Positions 12,181 through 58,103 of a stretch of 64,000 bases of DNA are shown piece after piece. The position numbers were made by a program, and so were the translations under genes. The number at the start of each line of letters is the position of its first letter. Within the stretch, counting starts at the first letter, position 1. The notes beneath the pieces are model-generated. The model saw nothing but the letters and a program-made list of their open reading frames with translations, was not told the DNA's origin and did not search any database. Source of the DNA: Posidonia oceanica (Eukaryota; Streptophyta; Magnoliopsida; Alismatales; Posidoniaceae). Location: the NCBI GenBank assembly GCA_037176725.1, contig JAZBRS010000023.1, forward strand, positions 31,863,001 through 31,927,000, given 5' to 3'.

Positions 12181-12939
12181 TAAAACATCGACGAAGCCAT
12201 GTAGATGCAAATGCAAAGAGAAAGGACAGGAGAAGCAAAAGGGGAAGCAAACAGTGTGTGTATGAAGACAGACACTGTTTAAGGACCGCGCAAAGTAGGT
12301 GTGAAGACCTACAAAAGGGAAAAGAAGCAAGTAGAGGGATTACCACTGTTTTGTGACTGTTTCCCACCAAAATGTCCCACGATGTGTCTCGCACGCAGCC
12401 AAAAGCTCGCGATGCGATAGGATCGTGGAAAAGGGGGAAGAAAGTCGCAATTAGTAGTGAATCCAGGAGAAACGCAACACAAAGTAGTAGGAGTACGCGA
12501 AAAGAGGAAGCAGTGTTGATAGATAAGAAGAGGGAGTCCTACTCTACATGCTCGAGGAAACAGAAGGCAAAAACGATGCATGCAATGCAAATGGTGTGCA
12601 AATGAATACTGTGCAAGGGTTTAGGAGGACTTACCTTGGAAATCTGAAGCCTAATCTGAAAACTGCTTGGTCCATGCTGAAGAGTGCTCCGCCAGGGTCG
12701 TCCAGGTAGCTTGGTTGAGAAGATCCAACGGCCAGATCTGAAGATATCCCAGCTTCAAGGCAGAGGGGCCAGAACAGGGGAGAAGAATGGATCTAGGTGT
12801 ACAGGAGGTCCTAGGGGGTGCACAACAGGTCCTCCCATGTGAATGGGAGCTAAGAATGCTTAAGTGTGTGCAGGAATGCCAAAAAGCAAGAATGCATGAA
12901 TGCAATGCATGCAGAATGCAAGAAAAGACGAAGGGATGA

Positions 12940-22367: not shown

Positions 22368-22370
22368 GGC

Positions 22371-27224: not shown

Positions 27225-27766
27225 GGCGTCGATATCTATCCTTTCTTGCCGCCAAATCTTTGAATCTGTCGATATTCATTCACCTTTGCCACCAGATCTT
27301 CGAATCTGTCGATATCTATCAGCTCTTGCCACCAAATCTTTGGACCTGTCGATATTGTTTCACCTTTTGTCTCCAGATCTTAGGATCTGTCGATATCATT
27401 TCTTACTACCAGATCTTTGAATTTGTCGATATTCATTCACCTTTTACCACCAGATCTTCGGATCTGTCGATATCCTCTTGCCGCCGGATCTTCAGATCTA
27501 TCGATATCCCCTTGCTGCCAGATCTTCGGATTTAACAATATTCCCTTGCCGCCAGATCTTCAGATCTGTCGATATCCCTTTGCCGCCAGATCATCGGATC
27601 TGTCGATATCCCCTTGCCGCCAGATCTTCGGGTCTGTCGATATCCTCTTGCCGCCGGATCTTCGGATCTGTTGATATCCTCTTGCCATCAGATCTTCGGA
27701 TCTGTCGATATCATTTCTTGCCGCCAGATCTTTGGATCTGTCGATATTGTTTCCCCTTTTGCTGCC
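27225..27766 (+). repeat. Minisatellite with TTCG-loop stem units, part 1
   Basis: About 14 units; the regular ones are 34 bp (27475-27700), the earlier ones about 40-45 bp. Core cagatcTTCGgatctg followed by tcgatatc. CAGATC and GATCTG pair around TTCG, so the RNA would form a stem closed by a cUUCGg tetraloop; variants read TTCA, TTTG or ATCG in the loop. The array resumes at 29085 after insertion G. Confidence 0.85.
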
Positions 27767-29979: not shown

Positions 29980-32252
29980 TGTTGACACCCCAATCAGACA
30001 GCCATTTGGCGGATTTCACTCGGAGGATTGAGCTCGGAAGCGGCGAACCCCACTTTCCACCTAAACCCAAACCAGAACCCCAAAAACCACCCAAAATCCC
30101 TCGAAACTCCCAAACCCACTAGACTCCACAAACTTAGGTCCATTAGAAACCCACTAGGCCCATTAGAAGCCCTGTGGAGACAGGAGGGTCCGGTCGCCAG
30201 TCACACAGGTGACTGACCTTGTCGCCACTCGCAGAGGTGACTCGGTCTCTCGCCAATCACAGTGGCGACTGAACTGTGTTGTCGCCCACCAGTGCGGCGA
30301 CTCACCTGTTCAACCTTCTCCCGTGCAGACTGCCACCACCCACGACCTGCAACCATGTCGTTCGCCCGTTGCCGTGCACGCCATCCTCTCCAGAGCCCAC
30401 GCCACACCCTGCCACCCACTCCTGTGCACGCCACGACCTGCTATCGTCCTTCCCGTGTAGACAACCAAACAAAATAGCCACCTACCACAACCCAACGAAG
30501 GGGGACACACAGAGGAACCGAGATTGCCCACTTCCTCACACGTCGGCGGCCATTTTCCCTTGCTTCCAGAGCGAACCAGAGCCACCCACACATTTTGAGC
30601 GATCCTCGAGCATCCCTGGACGCCGACACAAGCTCCAATAGGCTTCCCGAGCCTTTGAGCCCACTTCGCGCCGTCGTCTTCCCCATCTCCGGTGGCCCCA
30701 TCTCATCCGTCCGACGCTGCATTCTCCTTCCTCGAACACTGGGAAGCATCTCCAGACGTCCCCGAGCACGTTCCAACATCGCCGAGCATCCGCCACTTCC
30801 TCCAACGCCGCCGCGACCTCTGCGCCGTCCATCTCCGGCAAGCCACGTCGGGAGGCACATCCGTGCCCCCGCGCAAGTGCGAAACTACTCCCTCTTCATC
30901 CTCGAATCTCCCTCTAACTCTCTCGACCTTCTCCGAGCGCCTTGGTGGCGTCTCGCGGCCTGTCGGCTTCTCCCAAGGCCGGCGGACGCGGTCGTCGCCG
31001 GCGAGAAGAGAAGCGAGGTGGTTAGAGCGATCTGTTAGCTCATTTCTTGTTTTGAATGCATGCTCGCGTTCGTGGGAATGTCGTGAAGCTTCCCTGATCG
31101 CCACTGGTCCCTTTCGCACCACCGTCGGCACGGATTTTGGCGTCGAAGTCCGACCTCCGGACTGTCACCAATCGGAGTTTGGGTCGCCGTATCTCGCGGC
31201 CCAGGCAGCCGTTTTGCTTGTTGATTATATGCATGTGTTCGTAGTTGAATGGTCTTTAACTGCATGTATTTAGCTTCTTATATTGCATCACCAACGGCAA
31301 GAGATTTGGCTCCGAAGTTCATTGTGCAGGCCACTTGAGCTGCTAGCTATGGCGCCGCTTGTAGCGGCGACTAGCCTGGCTTTCTGGACAATCTCCGGGC
31401 CAACTTTGCGCCAGCGTATCTCCCAGTCCGGGCACCCATTTTACTTTCTGTTTGCATGGATTTGATCTTTGTTATGCCCTCTATGTTGCCATGCATTTGG
31501 TTTCTTATTTTGAGTAGATTTGCTAGCTTTTCTGAGGCAATGAAGTTGCCTGGTTGGGAACCTACACAGGGTCCAGCCGCCGCTCTCGCCGGTGACCTGT
31601 GCCGCCGCCTCTTAGGCGGGCGACGAGCCTAGTCGCCCTGAGTAGCGGTGACTCAGCCTGTAGACAACAACCTTCATCCCATGTTTGCCGCTTTCATTTT
31701 GCATCCGCTTAGCTTGTTTAACTCTGTTTTAGTTTCTTAATCGATTTACCATTGCATCATGGCATTCTAGCCCTAATCATCCATATTTTGCATGTTTTCA
31801 CTAAGTATAGCATGTTTTCAAATGGCATTTAAGCAAGTAAAGCATCCATAGCATAACATGGCATTTATCGCCCTCAGGCGTACAGTTAAAGGCAAGCATT
31901 TGCCGAAATTCCCGCATATGCGAGCGATAAGCCTTGAAAGACCGATTTCAGGCGTGTCGGGGGTGCCTAACACCTTCCCCGTGCGTAATAGGAGTCCTTA
32001 CCGTTTCTTTGGACCCGCAATGACCATTATACCCATATCCTAGGCACGAGTCAATCCTTTTGCATAGCATTGCATTCATTTGCATGTTTTCTTGCATTTC
32101 CCCCGATTTTCCTCATCTCCCGATTGAATAGACTAGGTGGCAACTCCGTTTTGCTTTATCTTTTGTTTTCCTTCTCTTCACGTCGCTATCTGTGAAGACC
32201 TCTCTCTTTCGGCCCCTCACCGGTCCAGATCTCCCAGGGACAGGCATTCACA
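29980..32252 (+). mobile_element. 3' LTR of E
   Basis: TGTTGACACCCC to ATTCACA. Same blocks as the 5' LTR, with the conserved box at 31955-32035. The internal primer-like word is mutated to tggcaactccg (32138). Confidence 0.92.
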
Positions 32253-32677
32253 GGTAGATCGTAAAATTTCGGTATGCTGAAAATCTCTGATTCGGTAGAC
32301 CATAAAATTTCAGTATACTGTTTTGCATGAAAACTCTGCATACACAATTTTCATGATTTAAAAGCTTTTTGCAAATTTTCTCGAACCACTTGCTTCTAAC
32401 CTAAGTGCTCTTAACCTAAGGTACTCTAGGATTAACTAGGTCACTCTTTCATGATTTTTGGGAATTTTACAAAAGAAATATTACAACTCAAACATAATAC
32501 AAAAGTTACATATTTAGAGTTGAACACAAATCTTCATGTCTTCATTGAAGCTCCATGAGCCATTTTGCCTTCTTCTTTTTTAAGGTCTATAAGAACGCTT
32601 TCTTAACCTAATAAGAAGGGTTAGAATACAAATTATTTTGTTATCATCAAAATTGAGATGAGGTAATTTTGCCAACA
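32253..32677 (-). mobile_element. 3' LTR of F, inner part
   Basis: Continues the LTR interrupted by E; matches 36395-36823. Ends gccaaca at 32677, that is, the minus-strand LTR start TGTTGGC. Confidence 0.9.
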
Positions 32678-39386: not shown

Positions 39387-41002
39387 TGTAGACACCCCAT
39401 TTTTTGATAGCTTGGATGTTGGTGGATCTTGCTAGAAGCTCGCTTGGATTCGGGATGGCTAATTTCTCTCAAATGCACCCTAAAACCTCACCAAACCCCA
39501 AAACCTTCCTAAACCCACCTAAACCCTTCTAAAACTCCACCTAAGCCTTCCTAAGCTTTAACCCACACCTTACACTAAGCTAAAACACCCAAAACAACCC
39601 TTAAACTTCTCAGATCCATTGTACACTGCCTTTGCCAGCGTCCAACGTTGGACGCGCTCTGTACTGGCATCCAACGTTGGACGCTATTCCGGCAGGCGTC
39701 CAACGAGTCGATGACTGCCACCTTCGGCCTGCCACTCCCATCCTCTCCTTCGTCAGCCCACACTTACTACCATGTCCCCTCACCGCTCTCGGCCACCCAC
39801 TACGCGCCAAGGCCCACTTACTGCCCTGCCACCGCGTCCCTTCCTCGCCGGTGGATTTCCGGTCTCTCCACAGTCACTGCCACCAGCCACCTGTGCTCTG
39901 CCACGCTGCAACTTTTCCTCCACCTCCTGACACCCCACTTACTTCCCACTACAAGCCACGACCAAGACTTACACCCCTAGACACAGCCGACTCTCCTCAG
40001 AAGTGTGCCACAGCCCCTTCTCCTCCATCGGCGAAAAAAGAAGAACCCAACACTCTCCAATCCTCCACATACACCACACACACCTCCAGAACCCAGGGAA
40101 GCACCTGAGAGACTCCACTAGCCTTCCCGAACCTTCCCCCACATGCGAGAGAGAGCCACAGCAGCCTCCCCCTCTCCGTGAGCTCGCCGCAGTCCGTCCA
40201 AGCTCGCCGGCCGGCCGCGTACATCTCCTCCAAGCCACACACAGGTCGTTTTCTACCCTTAGGCGCGTCCCTCGTCTCCTCCCTCATCGTATCCAAGCTT
40301 CATGGCTTCCCGGCCCCTCAGTTGGCCGGAAATGCAATGAACGCCGGCGGCAAGAGGGAGGAGGCGGGTGGACTAATCCACGCGCCCATTTCCAGTTTTG
40401 AATGCATGCCTATGTTCGTAGTTACTTGCTTATGCTTGGTGGATGTTTAGTTTCCCTTTTTGAATCGATTTGAGCATCAATTGTTGCCGGGAAACATCCC
40501 AACCTGTTAGATGTGCACCCTAGGGCGTCTAACGTTGGACGCGCCCTGAGGCAACGTCCAACACCCCTGCTGGCTTTTTCACTTATTTGTTTCCATGCTA
40601 CAATGGTTTGAATGCTATTTCCATGTGGATCATCTTGCATGCTTTCATTCATGCTTTTACATGCCATGTTGTAGATCTTATCTTGATTTGGGCATGGTTT
40701 CCTTTTTCATGCTTCATAATCTCCTACCTAGGTGTAGGATGCTACAGTTTCCAGTGTCTTATGTTAGACGCTAGTACACCTAGCGTCTTACACTCCAGTT
40801 TGCTTGCTTGCATCTTAACATCTAAAAGTCACTTTATTTTAAGATGCTTCTTTGATCCATGCATGTATGTTGATATCTAAACCTTCTTTCAGTTATTTGC
40901 AAGTTTATATGATGTCATCTTATCATTTAGCATGCAACAGTTTTTAGGCCTCTGTCTGCTCTGTGTCTCTAACGTCCTATGTTAGACGCTGAATGCTCTA
41001 GC
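39387..41002 (+). mobile_element. Solo LTR C, part 1
   Basis: Starts TGTAGACACCCCATTTTTTG directly after the target duplication gaagg (39382-39386). It contains palindromes built on gtCCAACGTTGGac (39638, 39670, 40525), a GC-rich block (39700-40390) and a gttttgaatgcatgc word shared with LTRs of E. It is interrupted at 41003 by element B; the duplication ctagc lies at 40998-41002. Confidence 0.88.
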
Positions 41003-41633
41003 TGTGGGTGTGGAATTTGGAATTTGGGGGGTGTTTGAGAAGATGTCGGCGCCTCCACGTACGTCGTCAACTCTGTTGTGATCGCCACTCGCCTTTGGGT
41101 AGATAAGACACCTGGGGGGAGATTATGATGATGGGGGTCCTCGGACCACTAGATTGACGGCAGGATGTCGTCTAGTGGCTTCCTCGTGCTACGTAAACTC
41201 CTTCCTTTCCTTCAAAATAAAACAACATAGATCTAAATTAGCTCAAGTGTAGTAGTCAGCAACCGAAGTGAACGAAATGACATGACTAAAAGAAAACAAA
41301 TATCGATCGAGGATTGTTCTCCGCATGCACATGCTATGGATCCTATGCTAAGGAATGTAAGAATGCAATGAGAAATTAGATTGGAAGAAAATACTCCCTT
41401 TCACCCTTATGCTGTATGCAATGAGGTTGGAAGGAAGCACGGTCGGAGCTCTGGGATCGGAGGTAGAAGCCTAGGTTGGTAGCCTATTAAGGATAGGAGA
41501 TAGAGTTTATGGATTGGAAATCTAGCTCTCTGAAGATGGCTTACAACTGACAGGGCTCTGCCTCTCTTAGAAATTCCTCTCTAGGGGGATTTCTCTCTCA
41601 AAAATTCCGACCCTCAAATCATCGGTCTAGGAG

Positions 41634-41647
41634 GTCTATTTATAGAC
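41634..41647 (-). promoter_or_regulatory. TATA box within GTCTAT/ATAGAC inverted repeat
   Basis: The minus strand reads GTCTATAAATAGAC: 6-bp arms around AA. The 5' LTR copy (57261-57274) has one changed base in the outer arm. Confidence 0.6.
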
Positions 41648-41783
41648 TCTAGGGGTGTGAGGACGGTTGGAGTTCAGAAAATTCTAGAAAAAGTGGTAGT
41701 TAGGGTTAGTCCGGTTCAGGTGGCGACTAAGGCTAGCAACCGCTCAGTCAAAGTATGGGAAGGCGGGAACGAGGCCACGACTG

Positions 41784-41966
41784 TTAGTCGCCGGTTGAGC
41801 TGGCGCCTAACGGTCGAGGGGGTAGTGGGAAATAACTGTGGAAAAGCGGTTCAAAAGTAGCCACGATTGTTAGTCGCCGCACGGAGTGACGCCTAATGGT
41901 CAAGGATCGTAGGGGAGACCGAGGCAGTTCCACAACCACTCAGTCGCCTGATGATCTGGCGCCTAA
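41784..41966 (-). repeat. Three 27-nt inverted repeats, TTAGTCGCC...GGCGCCTAA type
   Basis: At 41784-41810, 41870-41896 and 41940-41966, each 27 nt with arms TTAGTCGCC and GGCGCCTAA (small mismatches) around a variable 9-nt middle. The same set occurs in the 5' LTR (about 57412-57594). Confidence 0.75.
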
Positions 41967-42469
41967 GGGTTGAGGGGATCGTGGTGAGCAACTGCTACCC
42001 ACGATTGCCCAGTCGCCTTTCCAGGTGGCGTCCTCGTGGGTCGCCTCCTCAGATGGCTTTTGACTGGGCCGCCTCTGATGTCGACTTCTGAAGCAGTCGG
42101 CTAGGCAATGGGCGACGGGCTTAGGTCATTTCTAGCCCTTTTCCCGGGTTTTGGTCAGAGGAAACAAGATAGAAGGCCGGAAAACTACAAATAGTCTATG
42201 AAATCAAGGAGGCATCTCTGTTAACTCAAATCTACTACGAATCTGAGTAGAAATGAAGGATACCCAGGGTACTCAGACTTGCCACGAGCCTAAGCGAGTT
42301 AGCTCTGCCACAGCCAACAACTTGAATCAAGGTGGGATCAAGTGATGCTTTAAAGAAGTCAAGGAATATCTAGAAGATGTGTTATCAAAACTTAGGCACA
42401 AGATTTGGGGCACCTCAAGGTTTCTATCCTCAGGAGAACTCTCAGAAATGCAAAAATAGGATATCTACA

Positions 42470-42482
42470 GATGCCCCTCCTT
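42470..42482 (-). promoter_or_regulatory. Polypurine tract of B
   Basis: The minus strand reads AAGGAGGGGCATC directly before TGTAGATATCC, the start of the 3' LTR. Confidence 0.85.
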
Positions 42483-43539
42483 GGAGTTGATCTTGGAACA
42501 AGATTGGGTCCAAGGCAAGAATGATGTCCTATTGAGCATTTCTTGAAAAGGGGAGCTCCGTCTCAAACAATTTGCCACTGAAGTAGCCAAAGGAAAGATA
42601 AAAAGAGGGTTTAAATTGCCATCAAATTGAAGACTCGGGCATGGAGGGGTCAAGTCGGTTTCGGATCTTGTGTCACAGCCGAAGTCAAGACCAAGTCAAC
42701 CATGTAGAGGTGTTCCAACAGGCAAGCACTAAGGAGGAAATCGCGGGATGTTATTCCGACACGATCGAAAGGAGAGTGTGACATCTTGTTTGAGACTTCA
42801 CTCAGATTGGAATTGATAAGTGGATAGGTATGAACTGGGTTGGTATTAGGAGAATCATATGCCTAAAGGGTTTCTAACACTCTTGAAGAACAGTGCTTCG
42901 TCCATGCTCCACTTCCAATGATATGAGAAGATGCATGGATGCATGATTCAAACACGCGATGATACTGCAAGGTCAACATGCAATGCAATGAATGGTCCAT
43001 ATGCTAGGTTAGGCCGGCGGGGTACGGTTTGTCCCAAACCATATGGATATATGCAAAATGAATGAATGCAATTCATTGTGGTCAAGTGTTTTCCATCTCG
43101 GAGTGTGACCAGCACTCTTTGGAAAGGATCGTCGTCCTACAACTCGATTTAGCAAGTAAAGAGGTTCCGTGCAAAGAGAATCGGGTGAGGGAGTGAACCC
43201 TTCATTTGCCAACCCGATGTGTCGTCTGGTGTTCGCAGTGGTTGCGGCAGGTGGTGCGTGAACTCAAGGCAAGAGTTCACTCCTCGGCTTCACAGTAGTA
43301 GATAGTCTGTTCTGATGAGTTAGGCGCCTCTTGACTGGGCGGCTATTCTAGTCGCCGCTTGTTGGGGCGACGCGCGATCTCCTGGCTTATTTAGTCCAGA
43401 AACCGTTTTAAACCCTGATTCTTTTGATAAGGGGAGATAAAAGACGGTCGTCCTTGCTTTTCAGGAAACATTCTGCACAAGTAAACCCCTTATCTTGACC
43501 ATGAAGTTTCCTTCCTTCTCTTCTTCGACCTTCTAAGTG
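42483..43539. other. Spacer of B between antisense unit and 3' LTR
   Basis: No domain was recognised on either strand. Being upstream of the plus-strand unit, it could hold that unit's promoter, but no clear TATA box was seen. Confidence 0.5.
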
Positions 43540-45356
43540 AAGAGGGTGGTTGATATCCCCAACCATTTGATGAAAGCTATCTGGGATGACCAGGTATGTT
43601 CTCCAGCACTCGGCGGTGGAGTGATGTGCAGTGGGCTCCGGAGTGGCTTCGCCCTGTGAGACATCTGGGCCGCTTCCTTTTAGAGATCCTCCCAAAGGAG
43701 TGGGTGAGTTTCAGTGCTTAGACCCCTCTTTCCTGCACAGTTTACTGGTTTCAGACTGATTTGTGCTTGTAGCTTGTCTGAAGACCCTACTCCGAGGGTG
43801 AGCATGCTGATGAGGAGCCCGTGGCGTGCGGTTCCCACTTGTTCTTTCGAGAGTGCTGGCTTTTTAGCCTCTTCCGATGTCACTACAGCCAGGTGGGCCG
43901 TGTCCTGCGATAGTTCGGCCTTCGGCAGGTTGTTCCGGTGGCAGGTCCTACGGATTGCTCTCAGGGATCTATTTGGGGAGGTCGGACTGATACTCCTCAG
44001 TGGTTTGGAGAGCAGCTCGAGAACTGGCGCTCGGGTGGCACAGAGCCCCTTTCTGATGGTTCTGCAGAGACGGAGGCAGCGTGGAGGACCTGGTTTGATT
44101 TTCAGCTTGGCCATTTGATTGTCTTCCACCGTGATGTCTTTTATGGTCGCTCCAACATACCGATGGGCGTTGGTCCTAGTGTAAGCATTGGCGACCTTCG
44201 TCATGAGTTGGGGATTGCCCGCAGCCGCATGGAGGAGCTGGTAAGCAATTCCTTTTGGTGTTGTGTTATTTTACTTCTCCATTACTTGTTCGTTTGCTTA
44301 CGCATCTTCCTTGTTTGCGTAGATGGACGCTTCAGAGGGAATGACTGAGGCATTCAGGACTCAGCAGGAGCAACACTCCTTGAGAGTGGCAGAGTTGGTG
44401 CGGAAGAGGGACGAGCTCCTGTCCCAGATGGACGAGCTTTGAGCACGAGTGAGTCTAGTTTTCCCTTTTTAGTTGTTTGTGCCTGTTTCTGCTTGTCTAA
44501 TTGTTGTCTTTGCTTTGATACAGGCCGAGGGTGCTTCAACAAGTGCAGAGCCTGCCCCTACTGCCACCATAGGTCCAGCCGCTTCCCATGCCGAGGGCGT
44601 ACTTGCTGAGGAGGTCCAGGCTCACGATTCAGAGGTATTACCGCACTTTTCTTGCTTTAAGTACTTGTAAATACCTGTCCTCTAACTTGTATGGCTTCAT
44701 TGTGCAGATTCAGGCGATGATGGATTTGATCCATACACCTCCGGCCACTGGTCCCACTCAGAGCCAGCTGGACGATGCCTTGGGGCGTGCCGAGGAGCTA
44801 TAGGGGCGCCTCAGTCAGGCGGAGCGGGAGCATGATAGCCACGTCCGGGAGTTGGAGGCCCGTGTGGCTGCATCTGACGCAGCCATGGCTAGGGTTCAGT
44901 TTGAGGCTTCCTCCATGAGAAGGGTTTTTCTGTTCTGCTTTAATACTTTAGCTGTAGCTAGTCTTTCTGCCTTTCTTTGCTAATAAACTGCTTTGACTCT
45001 TTGGTTTGCTGTTTCTTTTTTTGCAGTTGAGTGACTTTCGGGCACAGCAGCTGCGGGACATGGAGGCGCGACTGATGCAAACGGAGATGGCAGTCGCGAC
45101 CGTTCTTCCCGATTCTGATATAACTGGTCTGATGCCGCCCCTTGTTGCGGCAGCTCCTACGGGGTCTGGGCATTCTAGGGCTTTGACAGCTGAGCAGATT
45201 TCGAGGGCACGATCTTCTCCTCATCTTGAGATGGTTCGCTCTATACTAAGGGCGTCTCGGGAGAGGAGCCAGAGCGAAGCGACGTCTTCTGTGGTGCAGC
45301 CCACGTCGAGGCCTCTAGGCGATGGACGCGAGGGTAGCGGCGAGTCTGGCCATTGA
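43540..45356 (+). pseudogene. Antisense five-exon gene in B: plant-mobile-domain-like with coiled coil
   Basis: Runs opposite to gag-pol. Exon 1 (about 43540-44240) encodes SDVQWAPEWLRPVRHLGRFL, ADEEPVACGSHLFFRECW, LFRCHYSQVGRVLR and FDFQLGHLIVFHRDVFYG, reminiscent of plant mobile domain proteins (from memory, not searched). Introns with GT..AG ends: 44241-44322, 44449-44523, 44635-44707 and 44924-45026, 73-103 bp each, all joining in frame. Exons 2-5 give a Glu/Arg/Gln-rich coiled coil (LRVAELVRKRDELLSQMDEL; REHDSHVRELEARVAASDAA; LRDMEARLMQTEMAV), ending at TGA 45354-45356. Defects: a frame change near 43600 and stops in exons 1, 2 and 4, mostly of CAG or CGA type. Extra antisense ORFs between integrase and 3' LTR are known in Tat elements. 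Confidence 0.7.
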
Positions 45357-46765
45357 GCTTGTACCTTTCTTTTTGTCAGAGTCTGTACTTTCCTTTTGCC
45401 AGAGTCTGTACTTGTGAATATTCATATGAAAGGTTTTTTGTTTCGCTTTGTTTCCTACACATGCTTACTTTTCTTGTTAGTAATCAATGAGCATACCTTC
45501 CTTGGCGAAAGATTTGGCTAAGTTAACTAATTAATAAAAGAGAAGATATGTCAAATGAAAAGATTTAGGCTAAGTTAATTAATTAACAAGGGGCATAACA
45601 GATGTTAATGCAAAGAAAGCATTCTTATTTTAAATGGGTGGAGGGAATTAATTTCTGGCCTTAGCTAAAGAGATGGAAATCAGAGCCCAGTAGACGCTGA
45701 TTATGAGTCATCCGTGGATGCTCTAAAGATCATTATGCGAGTAATGTCTTTGTTGAGAGAGCGCACCCAAGCTGTGAGACACGCTTGAGTAGAACGCTAA
45801 CTCCGAATCCTGGTGAGTCGATGGTTGCATCATCGGCCAGATTAATTCTAGTTTTCCTACTTACTAAGTTCTCACTTGTAGGTAGGTTGGATGTCTTGGT
45901 TTTTTTTCCTAGGTTTTGTAATTTTTTTTTTGTGTTTTGGGTTATGTGATTTTTTTTTGAGTTTTGAGTTATATGATTTTTTTTGGATTTTGGGTTACAT
46001 GATTTTTTTTTGTTTTTGGGTTATATGATTTTTTGGATTTTGGGGGTTTTCTAATAGGGGAAAGATGAGTACCTACCTTAAGCATTAGCCTCGGGGTCTG
46101 CTTCAACCAAATGAGTGGACCCTACATTTGTGGACGTGTCCCTTGGGCCATGCTTGCACTCTTTTAAAGACTTTGGTTCACACACCAGTCCTTACTTGGG
46201 TTGCTACTCCCTGAGCCTTTTTAGTCCTTGACCACCTGGGGTTGCTTACTCCTTGCCTGTTAGTGAGAATAGGACAGCGGAAGTTTCGGGATATAGTAAA
46301 CTCTCGATTTTGGCTTAGGCCTTGATTCCTGCTTGCCTTTCTCTAGTCCTTAATGCGTCTTTCTATGGTTTAAGCTTTTAGATGCACAGACAGTCGTTGT
46401 CATGCTCTTTTCCGCTCTTTGGACAGCTCTTTGCTGACCTCTTTTAGTTGGACAGTTTCTTTTACTGTCTCCTTTCGTTTGTTCCTTACTTGGACAGCTT
46501 CTTTGCTGCCTTCTTTCCTCTCTGTTTGGGTGGTTTTTGCCGCTGTCTTTTCTTGACGCTTTCTAGGTCACTTTGACAAGCAGTTTGTACTCTAAGCCTC
46601 CGCACCGAGCCTACTTTTTCCTTACCTTCCCGTGCAGTGTGTACGTAGAGACAGGACAAGGTATGGGTCCACCCAGGTGTTCCTCTTCCTATTGGCTTTG
46701 GGAATCTCTCCCTTTTCTGGTTTGGTGTTAGGCCCTAGGTCTTTTCGATGATATAGACATGCTGA
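45357..46765. other. Spacer of B between antisense unit and integrase
   Basis: Contains a T-rich patch of repeated gatttttttt/gggtta words (45895-46045), then Ser/Leu/Phe-rich text with no recognised domain. The repeated cttttgccagagtctgtact words (45370-45415) may mark the 3' end of the antisense transcript. Confidence 0.5.
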
Positions 46766-49700
46766 TCAAGGGTAGTACCTTTTTAGGTGCATTGCATTCC
46801 AAGGGTCAGGAAGATCTATTCTGTTATGGGACAATCGATAAGCATTCCCTGGATATGCAGCAACCACTATGTAGGGTCCTTCCCAGTTTGGCTTTAACTT
46901 TCCCTTAGGGTGGGGCTTATTGTAAGGCAACACTTTTTTAAGCACTAGATCACCAATTTTAAATTTGCATTCGATTACTTTCTTTTGGTAAGCCTTGGTT
47001 AACCTTTGTTGGTAGACACGCGTATTCTCAGCGGCTGCCAGCCGTTTCTCATCAAGGAGTTCTAAATGAAGGAGTAAAGCTTGCCTCTTTTCTTCGGCAG
47101 ACATTCTCCTATCAATCTTAACTCTTAATGAGGGGATCAGGATCTCGTATGGGACTACTGCTTCCATACCAAAGGCTAAAGCGTAGGGGGTTTGACCCGT
47201 TGCTGTCCTTATGGTGGTGCGGTACGCCCATAACGCATTAACAAGCTTATCTAACCAATCCGATCCCTTAGCATCTTCTACCGTCTTTTTAATGATTTTG
47301 ATTAAGGTTTTATTAGTAGCTTCTGCTTGACCGTTCCCTTGCGGGTAATACGGGGAAGAGTGGTGTAGAGTGATACTGAATTTTCAGCATAACTGCTTGA
47401 ACTCCTCTGAGATGAAGATTGGTCCGTTGTCTGCTACTAAGGCTTTAGGCACCCCGAACCTTGCGATGATATTTCACTGTACGAATCGGCACAGGGTTGT
47501 AGCCTTGATGTTTGTGAACGCCTCTGCTTCTGCCCATTTGGTGAAGTATTCCATTGTCGTTAGGATGAAAGTGTTGCCCTTTCCCTGATGGATGGGTCCC
47601 ACCACATCGAAGGCCCACATGGAGAAAGGCCATGGTGTTGATAAAGCGTGAAGCACTGAAGCTGGAGCATGGATCTTGTTAGCGTACAGCTGGCAGCTCT
47701 TGCACCGCTTGACTTTACTTGCGTAGTCGGCTTCCTTGGTAGGCTAGTAGTACCCCCTTCTGATGATCATTTTATCCATGAATTGGGAGTTGATGTGGCC
47801 CCCGCAGACTCCCTCATGTGTTTTCTTGAGAATTTCGGCTGACTCAGATGCATCCACACATCGGAGTTCGATCCCTAAGGGTGTTCTCCGAAAGAGTGTG
47901 TTGGCTCTGATGTAGTACTTCGTAGCCATCCTCCTCAGTGCTTGTCTGTCCTTGGGAGCTGCATAGGTCGGGAAGGCGCGATCTTGTACATAATTCTGTA
48001 TGTCATAATACCACGGGTTGCCATCATCATTTACTTCTGTAGCTCCTTGATAACAGACCTCTGTGCACATTAAGCTTCCTTGGTTTAGTTCCTCTCTGAG
48101 TTCTTGAACCCATTGGGCGGCAGACCTCACTGTTAGAGCGTTGATTCTTCGCACCATGATGGATTGCTCGTTTGTCTCTGAGTTGAAGGGGAGCGAGGAT
48201 GCCAATGAGGCCAATGAGTCAGCCAGGATGTTGTTGCTTCTAAGTACGTGCACATACATAACCCTGTCAAATTTCTTCAATAAGGCTTTAGCCAGATTGT
48301 GGTATTCCTGCAGCTTTGGCGAGAGGGTCTTGTATTTGTTGAGGACTTGTCGTATGATAAGCTGTGAGTCCCCAACCACTTTTAGTCTTCTTGCCCCTAG
48401 ATCGAGAGACATTTGGAGCCCTAGAATGAGTGCCTCGTATTCTGTAATGTTATTACTCGCTGAGAAGAGCAGTTGGGCTGCAGCGGGGAGAACAATACCC
48501 TTCGGAGTGAGGAGTGTTGCCCCTATCTCGGTGCCTTGTGAATTAAGTGCTCCATCGAAATGGAGAGTCCATTCTCTAATGAGTGGCATGACACTATTGA
48601 TTGCCAGTATCTCCTCGTCTGGGAAATTTGTTGACACTGGCTGATACTCTGACACAGGTAGCCCGGCGAGTTGATCTGCGATAGCTTGCCCCATGATCGC
48701 CTTCTGAGTGATGAACTGTAGGTCGAACTCAGTAGGGAGCATTTGCCATCGTGCTAGCCTTCCGGACAATGTTGGTTTCTCGAACATGTACTTGATAGGG
48801 TCCATCCTGGCTAAGTAGCAGACTTTGTGTGCAAGAAAATAGTGCCTGAGCTTTTGTGAGGCCCATACTAAGGCTAAGCAATGTCTCTCGATCTGGGAGT
48901 ACTTCCTCTTGTATTCAATGAATGTTCTACTGAGGTGATAAACCTCTTTCTCCTTCTTCCCAGTCTCATCGTGTTGTGCAAAGACAACACCCACCGAGTT
49001 ATCAGTAACGGCCAAGTAGAGTAGTAATGGCCTCTCGGGGACTGGAGCAGTCAATAATGGAGGGTTAAGGAGGTAGAGTTTTAGCTCATCGAAGGCCTTC
49101 TGACAGGTATGATCCCACTTGAATTCTACACCGCCTTTTAAGAGCTCATAGAATGGTCTACACTTTTCTGCATGCTGAGAGATGAATCTTCGAATAAACT
49201 GTAGCCTCCCTATGAGTCCTCTGAGTTCCTTGACATTCCTTGGCTGTGGCATGGCTGTTATAGCTTTGGCTTTGGTGAGATCCACTTCTATGCCCTTTTT
49301 GCTCACTATGAAGCCGAGCAGCTTTCCGGCAGTGACCCCGAAGACACACTTCTTGGGGTTCATTCTGAGATTGTATTGATCTGCTCTCCAGAGTACTCTT
49401 TCTAGTGCTTCAAAGTGTCCCTCTCTTGTTCTTGACTTTACTAACAGATCATCCACATAGCACTCCATGTAATCATGTATCATGTCGTGAAAGATTGCCA
49501 TCACAGCCCTCTGATAGGTGGCCCCGGCGTTCTTTAATCCGAACGGCATGACTACATAGCAGTAGGTCCCCCATGGAGTGGTAAATGAGGTTTTCTCCTG
49601 ATCTTCTTCTGCAAGTTTAATCTGGTTGTAATCGGAGAAACCGTCCATGAATGAGAGCATCTCATGGCCTGCAGTGTTGTCTATGAGGATGTCTATGTGT

Positions 49701-50419
49701 GGAAGAGGGAAATCGTCTTTTGGCCATGCTTCATTGAGGTTCCTGTAGTCAATGCACACGCGTACTTTGCCATCTTTCTTTATCACTGGAACTATGTTGG
49801 CAATCCATTCTGGATATACCACAACTCTGATGAACTTTGCCTTGTGTAGCTTGTCTATCTCTTCTTTGACTTTTAGTGCAAGGTCTGGACGTAGACGCCG
49901 GAGCTTCTGCTTCCCTATCTTAGCGCCTGGCTTGAGAGGGAGCCTGTGCTCCACCAGTAGTGAATCAAGACCAGGCATTTCTCCGTAAGAGAAGGCCAGT
50001 ACCTTCATATATTTTTTGAGTAGTTTTTCCATTCTGGTCTGTTCACCTGAGTTGAGGGCAGAGCTTATCCGAACTGGTCTTGGATCATCTTTAGTGCCCA
50101 GATTGACTTCCTCTGTTTCTTCAGCGGCAGTCTTGGTCTGCTCGTCGTATTTCTTTATCATTTCTTCAAAGTTGGCAAGGTCTACCGATTCTTCATCTAG
50201 GTCTTCTTCTGTATCCACCAGCTCGAAGAATTCATAGTTTCCAGTGTCTTTGCCGATGATGTTTGACACTTCTTCGACTAGGAAGATGGCATGTGACGCG
50301 GCTAGCTCCCACGGTAATGCTGTGGTATAGTGACATACTCTGACAGTTTGGGTGATCGGCTCCTTCCTGTCCCGGCCTGCACACTTAGTAGAGTGATTAG
50401 ATACTTTTTGTGAGGACAT
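46766..50419 (-). pseudogene. Element B pol: RT, two RNase H, integrase
   Basis: One frame from ATG 50419. Acidic linker, RT (about 50000-49400) with PEWIANIVPVIKKDGKVRVC, FMDGFSDYNQI, FGLKNAGATYQR and YVDD; gypsy RNase H (about 49200-48750); a second, archaeal-type RNase H (about 48570-48150) with WTLHFDGALNSQG, TEYEALILGL and VVGDSQLIIRQV, which is diagnostic of the Tat lineage; integrase with an H2C2 start (GVCGGHINSQ), catalytic FDVVGPI, ADNGPIF and NGQAEATNK, and a C-terminal GDLVLKKVLP segment. Stops at 47744 and near 47475 replace TGG (Trp), and one lies near 47388; all are within integrase. RT and both RNase H are open, so this copy lost only integrase read-through in pol. Confidence 0.92.
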
Positions 50420-50616
50420 GGTGGCGGTTAGGCCGTCCTTGCCATGTCCTCGTCTACCTTTCCCACTACTAATTAATCTAGGAAGTAAATTGCCAAAAAG
50501 TAAATCATGCGAAAACAAGATGCAGGAATTAAATGCGGGAAAGAAATTATTTACAAGGGTAGGGGGTTTGCCCCTAGGTTTGCTTCCATGGTGGAGGCGG
50601 TTCGCCATTGGGCGTT

Positions 50617-50936
50617 CAATCTGTGGCCCCGGCCCCTTCTTGCTTAGAGGGGCAAGGCCGTAGGTTGCTGAAGAGACGGGCGAGCTTGCAGATGGGGTCA
50701 GAGTCCTCCGCTTTAGTGTCTTCAGTGGAGGTTCCGGAGGAGTCGCTTGCTCGGATGTCCGAAGGTGAGGGAGTTTAATCTGTGGCCCCAGCCCCTTCTT
50801 GCTTAGAGGGGCAAGGCCGTAGATTGTTGAAGAGACAGGTGAGCTCGCAGACAAGGTCGGAGTCCTCTGCTTCAGTGCCTTCAGTGGAGGTTCCGGAAGA
50901 ATCGCTTTCTTGGATGTCCGGAGGTGAAGGAGCTTC
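50617..50936 (-). repeat. 159-bp tandem duplication at the protease-RT junction of B
   Basis: 50617-50775 and 50776-50936 are two similar copies. 159 is a multiple of three, so a 53-residue unit (DIQESDSSGTSTEGTEAEDS type) is repeated in the gag-protease frame. The pol frame differs from the gag-protease frame, and the switch happens just to the left of this repeat. Confidence 0.8.
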
Positions 50937-51296
50937 TGGGGATGCGAGGAGAGCAACAGGGACCTCCTCTATGCAAGAGATTGATGCTCCTTCCTCGAGC
51001 TTTGTCCGAGCGTTGAGGATGGTTGGAACTTCTTCTAGACAGGGAGAAGGAGTCGGTGCCGTCTCGGGATCTGTAAGAGTGCCGAGGATGACGGGCTTAG
51101 AGGCTTTTGCAGCCATTGTTGTTGCTAGAAGGTTGGGAACTGTGTCTGACGCATGCTTGCCGTGCACTTGTAGCCCGACTGATATGAAGTGGTTGGCAAG
51201 TGACCATGCTAAAGGTTTGCTTGGATCTGGTTGCCCAAGGTACCCTAGCCCGGTACGACTGCGCTCCTCAGGCGTTTCGAGTGCGTCCCTCATTCT

Positions 51297-52031
51297 TTAC
51301 TCTTGGCAGCCAAGTCCTTTCCCCAGGGTGTACCCTATCTTGAGGAGAATCTCCCAAGACCTTTTCATGTGGTCGGGGTAATCGTATTGATTCATATCAA
51401 TACCCTGGGGAGCAAAGACCTTCTTGACATTGTTTATGGCCTTGGCAGTTGAGTCCCTGACCAATGGTGCTGGCGCGGTAGTTGGGATTGTTACCAGGTG
51501 GGCATCAGCTTCTACTTGTTCGTCTCCCTGTATTTTGATGATTTTCCCTTGGTAAGGGAACTTCATGCATTGGTGACGCGGGGAGGTGATCGCCTTGATC
51601 TCTTCGATCCATTGGTGCCCTAAGATGAGTCGATACGAGATTGGGGCATCGACTACTATCAGTTCTGTCTCCATTTGGAGAGGGCCAATGGTAACTTTGA
51701 CGGTGATCTTCCCCAAGGTTGCTTTTTTGTTGTTGTCGTACCCTGATACAGTTAAGGCTGCTGGACATAATTGAGATTTTGTTAGCCTAATTAACTGCAG
51801 GGTTTCTAGGGAGCATACGTTTAGAGTTACCCCGGTATCCACAAGTACACCACAAAGTTTATAACTGTTTATTACAATAGTAACACTTAAAGGTAGGGTC
51901 CTCCTCTCAGGAGGAGCTAACTCGGAATCGGTGAAGATGACCATAGGCTCCATGAACATAGCAGCGGCAACGGCTGCCAGAGCTTCAGCGGGCATGTCCT
52001 CTGGTACCTGGGCCTTCTTTAATACCTCCAT
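51297..52031 (-). pseudogene. Element B second retropepsin-like domain plus G-patch
   Basis: Second aspartic-protease-like domain of the same polyprotein: PLSVTIVINSYKLCGVLVDT then GVTLNVCSLETLQL, a flap-side GKITVKVTIGPLQMETELIV and the C-terminal RLILGHQWI. The catalytic motif is D-T-G. Following it, KIGYTLGKGLGCQE is a G-patch core ending in a stop at 51297; the frame continues (51293 to about 50640) through a Pro/Ser/Glu-rich linker. Same frame as gag. It is not the same text as the first protease at 52314-53522, so the element carries two. Confidence 0.8.
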
Positions 52032-52313
52032 CAGGATATCCCAATGCTTCTCCGAGGCCTTGATCAGCTTGTAGATAGAGATCTTTGCTTGTGTCTTTCT
52101 GAGCTGCTCTAGGATGTCGAAGGTGCTTTCTATCCTCCGGGGTATGTGGAACTCCGGTTGAGGCAGGGAAATGGCTCGTTCTACATCAGGCGGAGATGGT
52201 GCAACTTGGTTGGAGATTCACCCTGTTCTTGTGATGGGGGCTTGCTGAGCTTAGTTGTGTTCTCCCTTGGCGTAGCCGGACTTAAGCAGAGATAGAGGTC
52301 TTATGAGGAGAGA

Positions 52314-53522
52314 CTACCCCTGATTTATGGGCAGTTGAGATGAGCTTAGCAATGTGGGCCTCTGGACCTGGGTATACCCTTGTGCTTGATCATCGGTGAA
52401 CTGCTGGAATCCTTGGATGCTTGGGGCTTCAACGTCCCAGTCATTGATCCAGTCGCCTGTGTCATTTGGTGCTGGATCTCCTATGTGAAATCCCGCTCGA
52501 TAGGGTTCCCCGATCATTTCCAAGGTTGTTTCATGGTCTGCCTTGATAGTGATCATCTCCCCTTGGAACTTGAACTTTAATAGCTGGTGCGTCGAGGACG
52601 CAACTGCACATATTTCCGCCAGCCAAGTTCTTCCCAGGATCAATGGTTCTACTAGTTCGCATTCTACCACCATGACCTTGGTAATGTTGGTGAGGGGGCC
52701 GATGGTAATCGCTAACTGAACTGTCCCTATCACCTCTGTCTGACTATTATCAAAGCCCTTGCAGAAAATCCTCTCCTTGGTGCTCTCTTCTTCTTCAACA
52801 TCCAGGTAGTCGAGTGTGTTCAGAGAGCACGCACTGCGACTAGCCCCTGTGTCTACATGTATGCCGGGGAGGAGGTAGCCGTTGACCTCTACAGTGATCA
52901 CTAAGGGCCAGAGCTGTTTTTCTGAAGTGGGTAGTTCTGAGTCCTTGAAGACTATATTCCTCCACTCATATTTTTTGATAATTTTCTGGGCTAGCTTGAA
53001 GGGATCTGTCCCGCCATTTTTCTCTTGGGATTGACCTTCTCCTGGGAGAAAATTGAAGCACTTGAGGAGCTCCAAGTCATTCTCCTCTCTTTCTTCGTCT
53101 TGTACTGCCTCTATTGGGAATTCCCATTCTATGGATCCCTGTTCAGAGCATACCTCGGCCTCATTGCTTTCCGCGACAAAGGAAACCAGCTCCGGCTCTG
53201 ATTCAAGTAGGCAAATGGAGACGGTCTCAGCCTCTGGTGGACAGCCTTTTGCCTCCAGGTGCGCCACTAGGTGGTTGGGTAGAGGGTTCTGGTGTATCTG
53301 CAACTTGTGTTGTCCCGTCCTGGCCTCTTTTAATCTGTCTTTGAGGGCAGACCACATTATTTCTCCCTTATCATTTAGATCATATATTCTATCTTTTACC
53401 ACATAACATTCTTCAAGTGTGTGCCCGTTTTTCTGGTGATATGTACAGTACTTGGACATGTTTGTGTTGGGAGCGTTTGGCTTTGGCACTGGGAGTTGTA
53501 AGTCCCCACTTTTGACCAGCAT
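52314..53522 (-). pseudogene. Element B zinc knuckle and first retropepsin domain
   Basis: Starts after gag with a C-x2-H-type knuckle (KYCTYHQKNGHTLEECY), a Glu-rich linker, then an aspartic protease: LVITVEVNGYLLPGIHVDTG followed by ASRSACSLNTLDYL, VQLAITIGPLTNITKVMVVE and EPLILGRTWLAEI. Catalytic D-T-G is intact. A stop closes it at 52314; about 280 bp to the second protease are partly scrambled with several stops. Family role is polyprotein processing. Confidence 0.85.
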
Positions 53523-55205
53523 TTTGAAGATGTCTGGGATTGTCTCTGGAAGTGGTGAGTAGTTCTGTCTCCTTGGTCCCCTAGGTGCTTGTGGAAGAGG
53601 AACATTGTGGTAGTCCCTCTGCCCTTGCGGCGGTGCCTTGTATTGGTTGTTGCTCTGCCCCTGTTGGGCATTTATCGAGGAATTAGAGTGCTGGGGTTGG
53701 AATTGCTGGAATGGCTGCCTCTACTGTTCCATTTGATATCGAGGTTGCTGGAAGTGTTGACCTTTCCATTCCCTCTGATTCTGCGTGGTCAGCTGTGCCA
53801 TGTTGCCAGTGACACCTTCTATTGTATGCCCCGCAGTCTTCTTCTAGTTTTTTGCTTCGAGCTCCAAGAATGGCAGCTCTTCTCTGTTCCGCATCACCTT
53901 GGCAGCCCGCTCATATAACTGTGGATAGGTGTGGAAGTCACCTACCAACAGTCCAGCTCTGAGTGCTCCCATGGTATTTCTTAGGATTATCTCCACGACT
54001 TGGCCTTCAGGTATGTAGCACTCTGACCTAGCGGCCATGTCCCTCCACCGGCTAGTGAAGGTGATGAAGTCCTCATTTCGCCTCATTCTCTCAGCTGTAA
54101 GGTCGCCCGCAGTGGGTTTGTGTGGCACCCGGTGACTGTACTGATTTAGAAATTTCTCTTCAATTATCCTAAAATACTGGAGATCATAGGAAGTTAGGGT
54201 GTCAAACCACTTTAAAGCTTCTCCCTCAAGTGTCTTGAAGAAGAGGTATGTAGTGAGTCCGGCATCGTAACAGTATGGCAGAGTATCCATAGTGAAGGCA
54301 GCTATGTGATTCCTGGGATCCTCTGTTCCGTTATATCTCCTCATCTTTGGCATTTTAAACCCTAGGGGAAGGGTAAAATGAGGGAACTTGGAGATGTCGT
54401 AGCTGATGGGTGTCTTTGAAGTGACTCCGGCCTCTATTAGTGCTTCGACGATCATCCTCTTGAGATCTGTCCCTGGTGCAGCGTGATGCCCCTGGCTTGG
54501 GCGTTGGTGTGTCTGTGGGAATGGCAATAGTGATGGGTTATGTTGCGGGGGAAAGAGGGATGATTGGGGTCGTGTAGGGTAGTACAGTGTGTTAATGGGA
54601 GGTTGTTGTGGATGGAAGAATGATGGTGGAGGCGGAGTGGGGTAGTATGGCGTGTTAGCGGGAGATTGTGGTAGGTATGGGGTTGGATATGGCGGAGTTG
54701 GATGGATATAAGGGTAGGTGGGCGTCGTGTGGTATGGTGGATAGGAACCTTAGTTAGGGAAGGCAGGGTTAGGTATGGCATGTGTATAGACTGGCGTATG
54801 GAACAGGTGATTGTGGTGTTCCTGGAGGGTGGAGGTTTGCGGGCTTGTGTGCGTGAAATGTTGTTGAGCCAGGGATTGCCAAACCTCGTAGGTCTCCTCC
54901 TCAGTTGGATAGGAGGTAGTCACAACGGGAGGCACGACGTTGGAAGTTGCCTCGGGATGTGTGAACTCGGGTGGGATGTTCATTGCTCGGGACTGATCCG
55001 CCTCCCTTCCTTCTTCATTTGTATCTATGTGGTAATCGAAGGGGATGGAGGCATGTAGGAATCTTCGTCGGCCGGTGGCTCGTGGGAAGCTGGGGGTTCC
55101 TGGCCCTTCCATTTGTGAGGTTGAGCCTCTGAAGAAAGACCCATCCGAGCCTAAGCTTTGCTGCGCCATGAAGGTAGAGGTAGAAGACGTGCTCATGTGC
55201 TCCAT
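53523..55205 (-). pseudogene. Element B gag
   Basis: ATG at 55205 (MEHMSTSSTSTFMAQQSLGS). Tyr/Pro/His-rich N-terminal half, then the gag core (54440-53850) with FKMPKMRRYNGTEDPRNHIA, FFKTLEGEALKWFDTL, FLNQYSHRVPHKPTAGDL and FTSRWRDMAAR. Stops near 54748 (TAA), 53844 (TAG) and about 53730 (TAG) are in frame and fit CAA or CAG to stop transitions. The same frame continues into the zinc knuckle and both proteases, giving an uninterrupted gag-protease polyprotein in the ancestor. Confidence 0.88.
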
Positions 55206-56586
55206 TTTTCCTTTCTTTTTCTTTTTGTATTCTCTTTTTCTTTTTGCTTTTTTTTGCTTTTGCTTTTTCTTTTTCTTTTTGCTTTTGCTTTTTTTTCTTT
55301 TTTCTTTTCTTTTTTGCTTTCTAGACTATTACAGAAGATTGAAAGCAAATTACAGATTCAAGTAACACTAATTAATACAGACTCGATGGAATGAAAGAAA
55401 ATTAATAGAAATTAAAACAGTTCGAGCTTACCACCTTGTGAACAGTAACATGCATAGACCCCTGCAAGCAAGGCACTGAAACGTAAGGTCCCCTATAGTC
55501 GCCTGTTTTACAAGCGGCTAGACAAGTCGTCGATTTCACCGGCGGCTGAGCGAGGCGCCTCCTGAACAGGTGGCTGTGCCTCTTGTTCAGTCAGCAAACC
55601 AGGTCTGTCTTGGACAGACCACGCAATAGTCGGGAAAGAAAAATGAGAACAGGTTTCAAACAATGCGTTGCTTTTACTTGTTTAAGTGTTTAATTAATGG
55701 ATTGATTAATTAAACCTGCGTGGGTCACAAGTAAATGGGATTGGTTGGCTTTAAGGTACTCCTCCTTGACCTTCTCTAGGGTCCACCAAGAGGGGCCTAG
55801 ATGGGGGGCTTGTCTCTCTAAAGAGGGACCCTCAACCTAGAATTCTGTCCTTAGGCTCGGCACTTAACAAACCATAAAGCAGGAAGTAAACACGAAATAC
55901 TAAAGCGTAAAGTATCTACCAAGTTTTACTATTGGCTCAGGGAGAGAGGGGAGCCAACAACAATACTTGGGACACCTTGAGATCTTGATCTAACTATTGT
56001 AGTTAACACTGAGTATGGGAGAGCGACTTGCACTAGCCCGGGTTCGCTCAGGTTAACTGTTCTAGCTAGAGGAAGACTTCCTCAAGGAACTTCCACTTTA
56101 ATATTAGACAATTAGTTTCCACCTTAAGGGTGGACACAAGCAAATCTAAAAACTGTTAAAAAACTAAAACACAGTGGACATGGAGAGTTGTTTTAAATTT
56201 TTTTTTCTTATGCTATTGCAGATCTAAAAATACAACACAAAATACAGAAAAGAAAACAAAGATCTGCAGTAAAAAACGGACTAGGGAAGTCGCCTGTGTA
56301 AAGGGCGTCTCTATCAGTCGTCCTCTGTAGGAGCGGCTAGGACAGGCGCTTCTAGGACAGGCGGCTCGCAGCACAGTGTTCTAACCTTAGTAAATTAGCC
56401 CCAGCTATTGGAGCTTGGGATTTTACTGATGTTAGAAACAGAAAAAAAAACAGAAAGATGGTCTGGGGTATCGTGAAAACCTAAACGCATGATTACCTGA
56501 ACCAAAAAACTACTCCTAGATCTATGAGAATGATGGAAATGAAGGAAGGAATTGACTTACGTAGCACGGGGGTTGGCTAAAGCCGA
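55206..56586 (-). other. Leader of B
   Basis: Begins by the gag start with a purine tract on the minus strand (55205-55325, cttttt/tttttgc repeats on plus). No gene was recognised. Two clusters of AGTCGCC/GGCG words (55495-55590 and 56285-56370) resemble those in the LTR. Confidence 0.6.
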
Positions 56587-56604
56587 GTCCCATTGTGATC
56601 GCCA
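56587..56604 (-). promoter_or_regulatory. Primer binding site of B
   Basis: The minus strand reads TGGCGATCACAATGGGAC, six bases after the LTR end ...CCCACA. It differs from the TGGCGACTCC form of A and E, so a different tRNA may be used. The cognate tRNA was not identified. Confidence 0.65.
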
Positions 56605-56610
56605 CTTTTC

Positions 56611-58098
56611 TGTGGGTGTGGAATTTGGAATTTGGGGGGTGTTTGAGAAGATGTCGGCGCCTCCACGTACGTCGTCAACTCCATTGTGATCGCCACTCGC
56701 CTTTGGGTAGATAAGACACTTGGGGGGAGATTATGATGATGGGGGTCCTCGGACCACTAGATCGACGGCAGGATGTCGTCTAGCAGCTTCCTCGTGCTAT
56801 GTAAACTCCTTCCTTTCCTTCAAAACAAAACAACATAGATCTAAATTAGCTCAAGTGTAGTAGTCAGCAACCGAAGTGAACGAAACGACATGACTAAAAG
56901 AAAACAAATACTGACCGGGGATTGTTCCCCGCATGCACATGCTATGGGTCCTATGCTAAGGAATGTAAAAATGCAATGAGAAATTAGATTGGAAGAAGAT
57001 ACTCCCTTTCATCCTTATGCTGTATGCAATGAGGTTGGAAGGAAGCACAGTCAGAGCTCCAGCGTAGCTGAGGATCTATGGGATCTTAGGTAGAAGCCTA
57101 GGTTGGTAGCCTATTGGGGACAGGAGATAGAGTTTCTGGATTGGAAATCTAGCTCTCTGAAGGCGGCTTACAACTGACAGGGCTCTGCCTCTCTTAGAAA
57201 TTCCTCTCTAGGGGGATTTCTCTCTCAAAAATTCCAACCCTCAAACCACTGGTCTAGGGGATCTATTTATAGACTCTAGGAGTGTGAGGACGGTTGGAGT
57301 TCAGAAAATTCTAGAAAAAGTGGCAATTAGGGTTAGTTGCCAGTTCAGGTGGCGACTAAGGCTAGAAACTACTCAGTCAAAGTGTGAGAAGGCGGGAACG
57401 AGGCCACGACTGTTAGTCGCCGGTTGAGCTGGCGCCTAACGGTCGAGGGGGTAGTGGGAAATAATTATGGAAAAGCGGTTCAAAAGGAGCCACGATTGTT
57501 AGTCGCCGCACGAGGTGACTCCTAATGGTCAAGGATCATGGGGGAGACCGAGACAGTTCCACAACCGCTCAGCCGCCTGATGATCTGGCGCCTAAGGGTT
57601 GAGGAGATCGTGGTGAGCAACCGCTGCCCACGATCGCCCAGTCGCCTTTCCAGGTGGCATCCTTGTGGGTCGCCTCCTCAGATGGCTTTTGACTGGGTCG
57701 CTTCTGATGTCAGCTTCTGAAGCAGTCGGCTAGGCAATGGGCGACGGGCTTAGGTCATTTCTAGCCCTTTTCCCGGGTTTTGGTCAGAGGAAACAAGATA
57801 GAAGGCTGGGAAACTACAGATAGTCTATGAAATCAAGGAGGCATCTCTGTTAACTCAAATCTACTACGAATCTGAGTAGAAATGAAGGATACCCAGGGTA
57901 CTCAGACTTGCCACGAGCCTGAGCGAGTTAGCTCTGCCACAGCCAACAACCTGAATCAAGGTAGGATCAAGTGATGCTTTAAAGAAGTCAAGGAATATCT
58001 GGAAGATGTGTTATCAAAACTTAGGCATGAGATTTGGGACGCCTCAAGGTTTCTATCCTCAGAAGAACTCTCAGAAATGCGAAAATAGGATATCTACA
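56611..58098 (-). mobile_element. 5' LTR of B
   Basis: 1488 bp. Starts TGTAGATATCC at 58098 (minus) and ends CCCACA at 56611. It carries an exact internal copy of 17 bases of the primer-site region (56681-56697) and the TATA word at 57261-57274. Confidence 0.92.
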
Positions 58099-58103
58099 CT
58101 AGC

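Follow-up and report, generated by a model that had tools for sequence, protein, structure and literature searches.

Architecture of the locus

The stretch analysed here (the window) comprises 64,000 nucleotides of the Posidonia oceanica genome (contig JAZBRS010000023.1, positions 31,863,001 to 31,927,000, forward strand) and contains a complete Tat-type LTR element of 17.1 kb (window 41003-58098) with a 5-bp target duplication. On the strand opposite to its gag-pol lies an intron-bearing unit, described below with the exon numbering of two putative plant mobile domain (PMD) genes, PMD-1 and PMD-2, of sister elements:

40998-41002, no strand: target-site duplication CTAGC, left (direct reading)
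41003-42469, minus strand: 3' LTR (self-BLAST; ends read directly)
43501-43593, plus strand: PMD-1 exon 1, with one in-frame stop; a GT donor follows at 43594, and nothing further of PMD-1 remains in this copy (sequence; L072/L073 alignment)
43604-43609, no strand: deletion junction, PMD-1 intron 1 to PMD-2 exon 3 (sister alignment)
43605-43703, plus strand: PMD-2 exon 3, 5' part missing
43773-44240, plus strand: PMD-2 exon 4, encoding the C-terminal portion of the mobile domain and interrupted by two in-frame stops
44323-44448, plus strand: PMD-2 exon 5, one in-frame stop
44524-44634, plus strand: PMD-2 exon 6
44708-44923, plus strand: PMD-2 exon 7, coil-like, one in-frame stop
45027-45356, plus strand: PMD-2 exon 8, including the stop codon
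46766-55325, minus strand: gag-pol remnants (Pfam: SH3_Tf2-1, below cut-off; RVT_3; RNase H; RVT_1; two protease-like matches, below cut-off)
56611-58098, minus strand: 5' LTR (self-BLAST; ends read directly)
58099-58103, no strand: target-site duplication CTAGC, right (direct reading)

The two LTRs are direct repeats with 93.6% identity (self-BLAST of the window) and TG...CA ends, which together with the target-site duplication mark a complete insertion. Their divergence (K2P 0.0552 over 1467 aligned positions), combined with assumed substitution rates, places the insertion at ~2.1-4.3 My, an estimate only. Within the ORF at 47744-50968, Pfam orders the domains as RVT_1 (397-555), RT_RNaseH (618-744) and RVT_3 (804-922), followed by the pol end. 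RVT_3 is a second RNase H behind RT-RH, and a second RNase H between RH and integrase is what defines the angiosperm Tat clade (Ogre, Retand) according to the available text of PMC6317226; the element thus belongs to Tat, as originally predicted, and its PMD content favours Ogre, the subclade marked by a tRNA-Arg primer site and an intron separating gag-prot from RT, rather than Retand. The pol end lies at 46766-47383 on the minus strand. Here the integrase is assigned from a sub-cut-off SH3_Tf2-1 match and its position, the integrase core having no Pfam match. A tRNA scan of the window for the primer tRNA returned none. Two consecutive minus-strand ORFs (51297-52217 and 52314-53720) each match gag-asp_proteas below the cut-off (E 0.0015 and 0.00026), and the gag-pol of this element possibly holds two protease domains.

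Other repeats in the window include a GC-rich tandem array of 29-30-base units with several frames open on both strands (11285-12540), a second tandem array of ~34-base units (27228-27747), and a separate repeat family represented by a 2.3-kb direct repeat with 89% identity (20106-22369 and 29980-32254), of which partial copies lie near 58276-58844 and 62589-63205.

The unit itself occupies ~43605-45356 on the plus strand, between the pol end and the 3' LTR and antisense to gag-pol; the exon map and the Pfam matches bear out the strand and place given in the original prediction. It is made up of six exons of 99 to 468 bases, separated by five phase-0 GT-AG introns whose removal leaves a single frame, and its base composition differs between introns (GC 0.38, T 0.47) and exons (GC 0.59). 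The prediction of four introns and five exons in one frame was correct as to the GT-AG borders and the common frame; the count is one higher for each, with the first exon truncated, and four in-frame stops interrupt the reading. Searches with this copy returned no PMD in Pfam (coil-bearing families matched weakly, all below the cut-off), no match in NCBIfam and nothing at E <= 1 in the protein database, a lack of matches that we attribute to its truncation; PDB sequences gave none, and IMG/VR one pattern match that is no relative. The tail, described earlier as a Glu/Arg coiled coil, matches Pfam Sec10_N below the cut-off (2.4e-4), and its simple heptad score is reached by 45 of 500 shuffles; a coiled coil is plausible here, if weakly supported.

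The window copy is the product of a deletion

Two sister copies, L072 and L073, align unbroken with the window from the LTR onwards (42119-43604; 93.1% and 91.9% identity). Past 43604 these copies continue into the intron and second exon of PMD-1, whereas the window jumps into exon 3 of PMD-2; by genomic coordinates, the window lacks 4,422 bp that the L072/L024 element has. Sister copies can be aligned with the window from ~43609 on and, with the exception of L060, not upstream of that point. This particular deletion was found in no other fetched copy; L060 (about 602-1146) has a different internal deletion, which fuses LTR-side DNA to the middle of a PMD exon, and its upstream DNA is as in the window.

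The unit therefore reads as what a deletion has left of a larger gene, not as the self-contained five-exon gene that had been proposed, and the start assigned to it, 43540, falls in PMD-1 exon 1 (43501-43593), which the loss of ~4.4 kb joined to PMD-2. Because of this loss and the stops present, the window copy encodes neither protein, and it is evidently the dead, shortened remains of an accessory gene of a retrotransposon family.

Sister copies carry a predicted multi-exon mobile domain gene

A 26-mer taken from exon 4 occurs, with at most three mismatches, at 1,483 + 1,635 = 3,118 places in the genome (2.96 Gb, 80 contigs), and the reversed 26-mer, used as a control in the same genome, at zero. 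We fetched 68 of the exact places listed and used 67, L063 (1,551 bases) being excluded from all counts; the sample thus consists of exact matches to the exon 4 26-mer, and copies without it are not represented. The homologues anticipated in sister elements are consequently plentiful.

Upstream of the part homologous to the window, the sister copies contain a further exon, exon 2, whose frame is free of stops or almost so, kept at 80% or more of its length in 66 of the 67 copies and at less than half in none. On its own this exon matches PF10536 in two copies (E 1.1e-25 and 6e-23; profile 1-180; 91.0 bits against a cut-off of 34.9), and exons 3 and 4 of a sister copy, joined, cover profile positions 182-294 (E 9e-8; 32.1 bits, short of the same cut-off). 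When exons 2-8 of one sister copy were spliced, with X at the stops, the match became a single stretch that spans two splice joints and covers 1-295 of 347 profile positions (E 4.3e-36, 125.2 bits). The region missing from the window copy is, on this profile evidence, a true plant mobile domain. The mobile-domain front of the original prediction is thus recovered in the spliced exons of sister copies, as the profile search suggested with that prediction brings out, and is beyond Pfam detection in the window copy itself.

In one element (L071/L013) we additionally read a leader exon that starts ATGGCTAGC and ends at a GT donor, with the next exon behind an AG and a fitting phase 2. The leader pattern is present in L069 and L071 and absent from L070; few copies stand behind the first two exons. 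Since these two exons precede exons 2-8, PMD-2 would comprise, by our own reading of the sister copies, nine exons: a leader, a charged exon, three PMD exons and four tail exons. Downstream of its stop, AATAAA is found in 2 of 58 copies, i.e., a poly(A) signal is not conserved.

The borders of the five introns present in the window are kept across the copies, as befits spliceosomal introns. With the window included, the GT donors are retained in 61/67 to 66/68 sequences and the AG acceptors in 61/68 to 62/64. The donors have a mean retention of 0.946, compared with 0.761 for 106 other GT pairs, and random sets of five such pairs reach their mean in 1.4% of draws; the acceptors are no better than other AG pairs (reached in 18% of draws), and their conservation does not exceed chance.

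A second antisense PMD gene, PMD-1, lies upstream of PMD-2 in sister elements (L072-L073, L069-L071, L074-L085), where two of its exons are seen. Its second exon scores 35.4 bits against PF10536 in one copy and 33.3 in another (cut-off 34.9); its first exon and its second half have no Pfam match. The two predicted proteins can be aligned over 55 residues (33% identity, E 1e-5). At the expected place in 12 further stretches, the first half of PMD-1 was found in all 12 and the second half in 11, the remaining stretch, L083, ending before it. By these alignments, the sister elements evidently carry two antisense PMD genes in tandem.

Selection on the reading frames

The dN/dS check proposed for the unit was carried out on variants called "shared" when seen in at least three of the 67 copies, over exons 2-8, those seen in exactly two being excluded. 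Shared exon variants are distributed over codon positions 1/2/3 as 355/276/443 (chi-square p 3e-9) and comprise 571 replacements and 446 silent changes, i.e., 0.48 of the expected replacement-to-silent ratio (N/S), a value below those of all five other frames (0.59-1.06) that points to selection on a protein. Singleton exon variants, on the other hand, are evenly spread (503/545/508, p 0.36) with an N/S of 1.29, and introns read as codons give 92/83/93 (p 0.71) and 0.76-0.78. Restricting the count to transversions leaves 0.46 for shared and 1.10 for singleton variants in exons, and 1.3 and 0.99 in introns. Compared directly, shared variants differ between exons and introns in their replacement-to-silent proportion (Fisher p 0.005), the corresponding value for position 3 being p 0.051. 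Singleton N/S exceeds 1 in exons 2, 7 and 8 (1.90, 1.58 and 1.53), which points to alignment noise in these exons.

Stops and indels were counted in the same copies. The gene frame contains 9.3 stops per 1000 codons, against 23.6-53.0 in the other five frames, and each of the 67 copies has between 1 and 15. With shared indels counted once per copy, 79 of 139 exon deletions and 15 of 120 intron deletions have a length divisible by three; among insertions, where we report no such excess, the figures are 12 of 41 and 14 of 223. All seven exon lengths are divisible by three in 29 of 67 copies. Sense-strand coding over the same bases was considered and rejected, the reverse frames having 23.6-37.6 stops per 1000 codons and an N/S of 0.59-0.97 of expected.

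For PMD-1, variants seen in at least two copies (14 sequences, gene frame) fall at codon positions 21/22/55 with an N/S of 0.22 of expected, and singletons at 61/42/60 with 0.71. The signal of purifying selection is stronger in PMD-1 than in PMD-2.

Our reading of these patterns is that selection worked while the elements transposed and that copies, once inserted, probably decayed freely. The PMD-2 unit would then be a selected protein gene whose introns are presumably spliced out of its transcript.

Related proteins in taro

With exon 2 of a sister copy as query, 24 proteins were found: 21 on short ENA contigs (551-1,664 bases), two in the monocot taro (Colocasia esculenta) and one of other origin. 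In P0014, P0017, P0018 and P0019 (ENA), as well as in P0022, the translation overruns the exon end, at the same place as judged by eye, into intron-like sequence. The spliced query added three taro proteins, bringing the related ones to five. One of these, P0027 (765 aa), shares 26% identity with PMD-2 over 537 positions, with its parts arranged in the same order. Aligned with the tail of PMD-2, its tail reaches a score of 106, which none of 300 shuffles equals (50.7 +/- 9.0), and RPP...EG-GESG closes both proteins. An AlphaFold model of a 217-aa relative (14 rows) had a mean pLDDT of 38.7 and was discarded.

Interpretation and alternatives

Taken together, we consider it highly probable that, in functional relatives of the element, selection maintained two antisense PMD proteins with a presumed action in the nucleus, and that what is left in the window is a damaged remnant of this arrangement. 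Both genes would be encoded antisense to gag-pol between pol and the 3' LTR. Introns in this orientation would not be spliced from the genomic RNA and would be carried through reverse transcription, i.e., they would survive retrotransposition because the genomic RNA is the other strand; the antisense orientation found here supports the original argument that introns can be kept in a retrotransposon only in this way. Removal would take place solely from mRNA transcribed off an integrated copy.

The proteins may then be nuclear and influence chromatin or transcription; most likely they would bind the host MAIN/MAIL-PP7L silencing module or compete with it, to the advantage of the element, and a nuclear regulator acting on host silencing appears to us the likely role of PMD-1 and PMD-2. 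More tentatively, and with less confidence than we place in the selected gene pair, we suggest that the family may keep a two-protein anti-silencing kit as intron-rich antisense genes, with MAIN/MAIL-PP7L as its domesticated counterpart or target. We propose that the introns would confine expression to integrated DNA read by the host polymerase in the nucleus, so that the proteins would act where silencing is decided.

The gene could instead have been captured recently, introns included, from a host MAIL-like gene, its exon signal being inherited from before the capture, an origin close to that first suggested for the unit. The introns do resemble ordinary plant introns (GC 0.38, T 0.47), and host genes, too, carry PMD (PMC5418596). 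The selection signal, however, is seen among transposed copies, in shared and not in singleton variants, and a single element contains two different PMD genes. In addition, five taro proteins are related, one of them matching in PMD, tail and C-terminus, which makes the architecture older than the copy family. Recent capture is therefore improbable. We regard it as still less probable that the product is the antisense transcript rather than a protein, pairing with genomic RNA to give siRNAs that damp the element. Such a role has been proposed for antisense ORFs in a review (PMC7264820), and PMD genes of tea are reported to yield phased siRNAs (PMC10673657), but selection at the protein level in both PMD-1 and PMD-2 speaks against the transcript as the product, and the two readings may hold together.

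That the frame arose by chance, GT and AG pairs in a GC-rich stretch being misread as exon borders, might be suspected from a window copy with four stops and no Pfam match. Given the PF10536 match of a sister copy across splice joints (E 4e-36), the selection pattern and the taro homologue, we find this scarcely credible and regard it as refuted as far as sequence can refute it. We thus retain a selected pair of antisense PMD genes as the preferred reading.

Comparison with known systems

PMD frames in Gypsy and Ogre elements are already known: in the published texts, Neumann et al. put the share of Ogre elements with PMD at 57% (PMC6317226) and Ikeda et al. describe clades PMD-A1 and PMD-A2 as restricted to Gypsy elements (PMC5418596). 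Neither antisense PMD genes with several introns nor a tandem PMD pair turned up in the searchable literature, a Genetica 2011 paper on extra ORFs lying outside its scope. Surveys for continuous ORFs of at least 250 codons, such as that outlined in PMC6317226, would miss much of PMD-2, whose window exons measure 99-468 bases. The host proteins MAIN and MAIL1 (clade PMD-C) act in transposable element silencing with PP7L (PMC5418596, PMC7156037). In PMC5418596, Ikeda et al. speculate that PMDs captured by MULEs serve anti-silencing and leave open a Gypsy origin of the MAIN/MAIL silencing genes, a question on which ~3,100 marked places and selection on two PMD proteins offer direct material.

The closest likeness is to the PMD eORFs of Ogre and the PMD-A1/A2 frames of Gypsy elements, which likewise combine PF10536 with a Tat-type element that has a second RNase H after RT-RH; what sets the present elements apart is a tandem pair of antisense PMD genes, of which one has at least seven introns and a long tail. 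The taro proteins P0025-P0027, annotated as 'aminotransferase-like plant mobile domain', resemble PMD-2 in their charged N-terminus, PMD, coil-like tail and RPP...EG-GESG end and differ in sequence (26% identity), the comparison being one of proteins alone. The antisense ORFs of Retand (TRP28) and gene23 of maize Grande occupy the same position, antisense between pol and the 3' LTR (PMC11963269, PMC7264820), but have another domain (PF04195) and are described as continuous ORFs, the available texts of both papers containing no "intron". Grande gene23 has its own promoter, and antisense accessory genes with their own promoter or a nuclear product are known from Grande (PMC7264820). MAIN and MAIL1 of Arabidopsis, which act with PP7L, are likewise PMD proteins, with a part in transposable element silencing, and differ in being host genes of clade PMD-C. 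HBZ of HTLV-1 is likewise a spliced antisense gene of a retroelement, but its protein is unrelated, and it provides an analogy only for the arrangement described here (PMC1459196).
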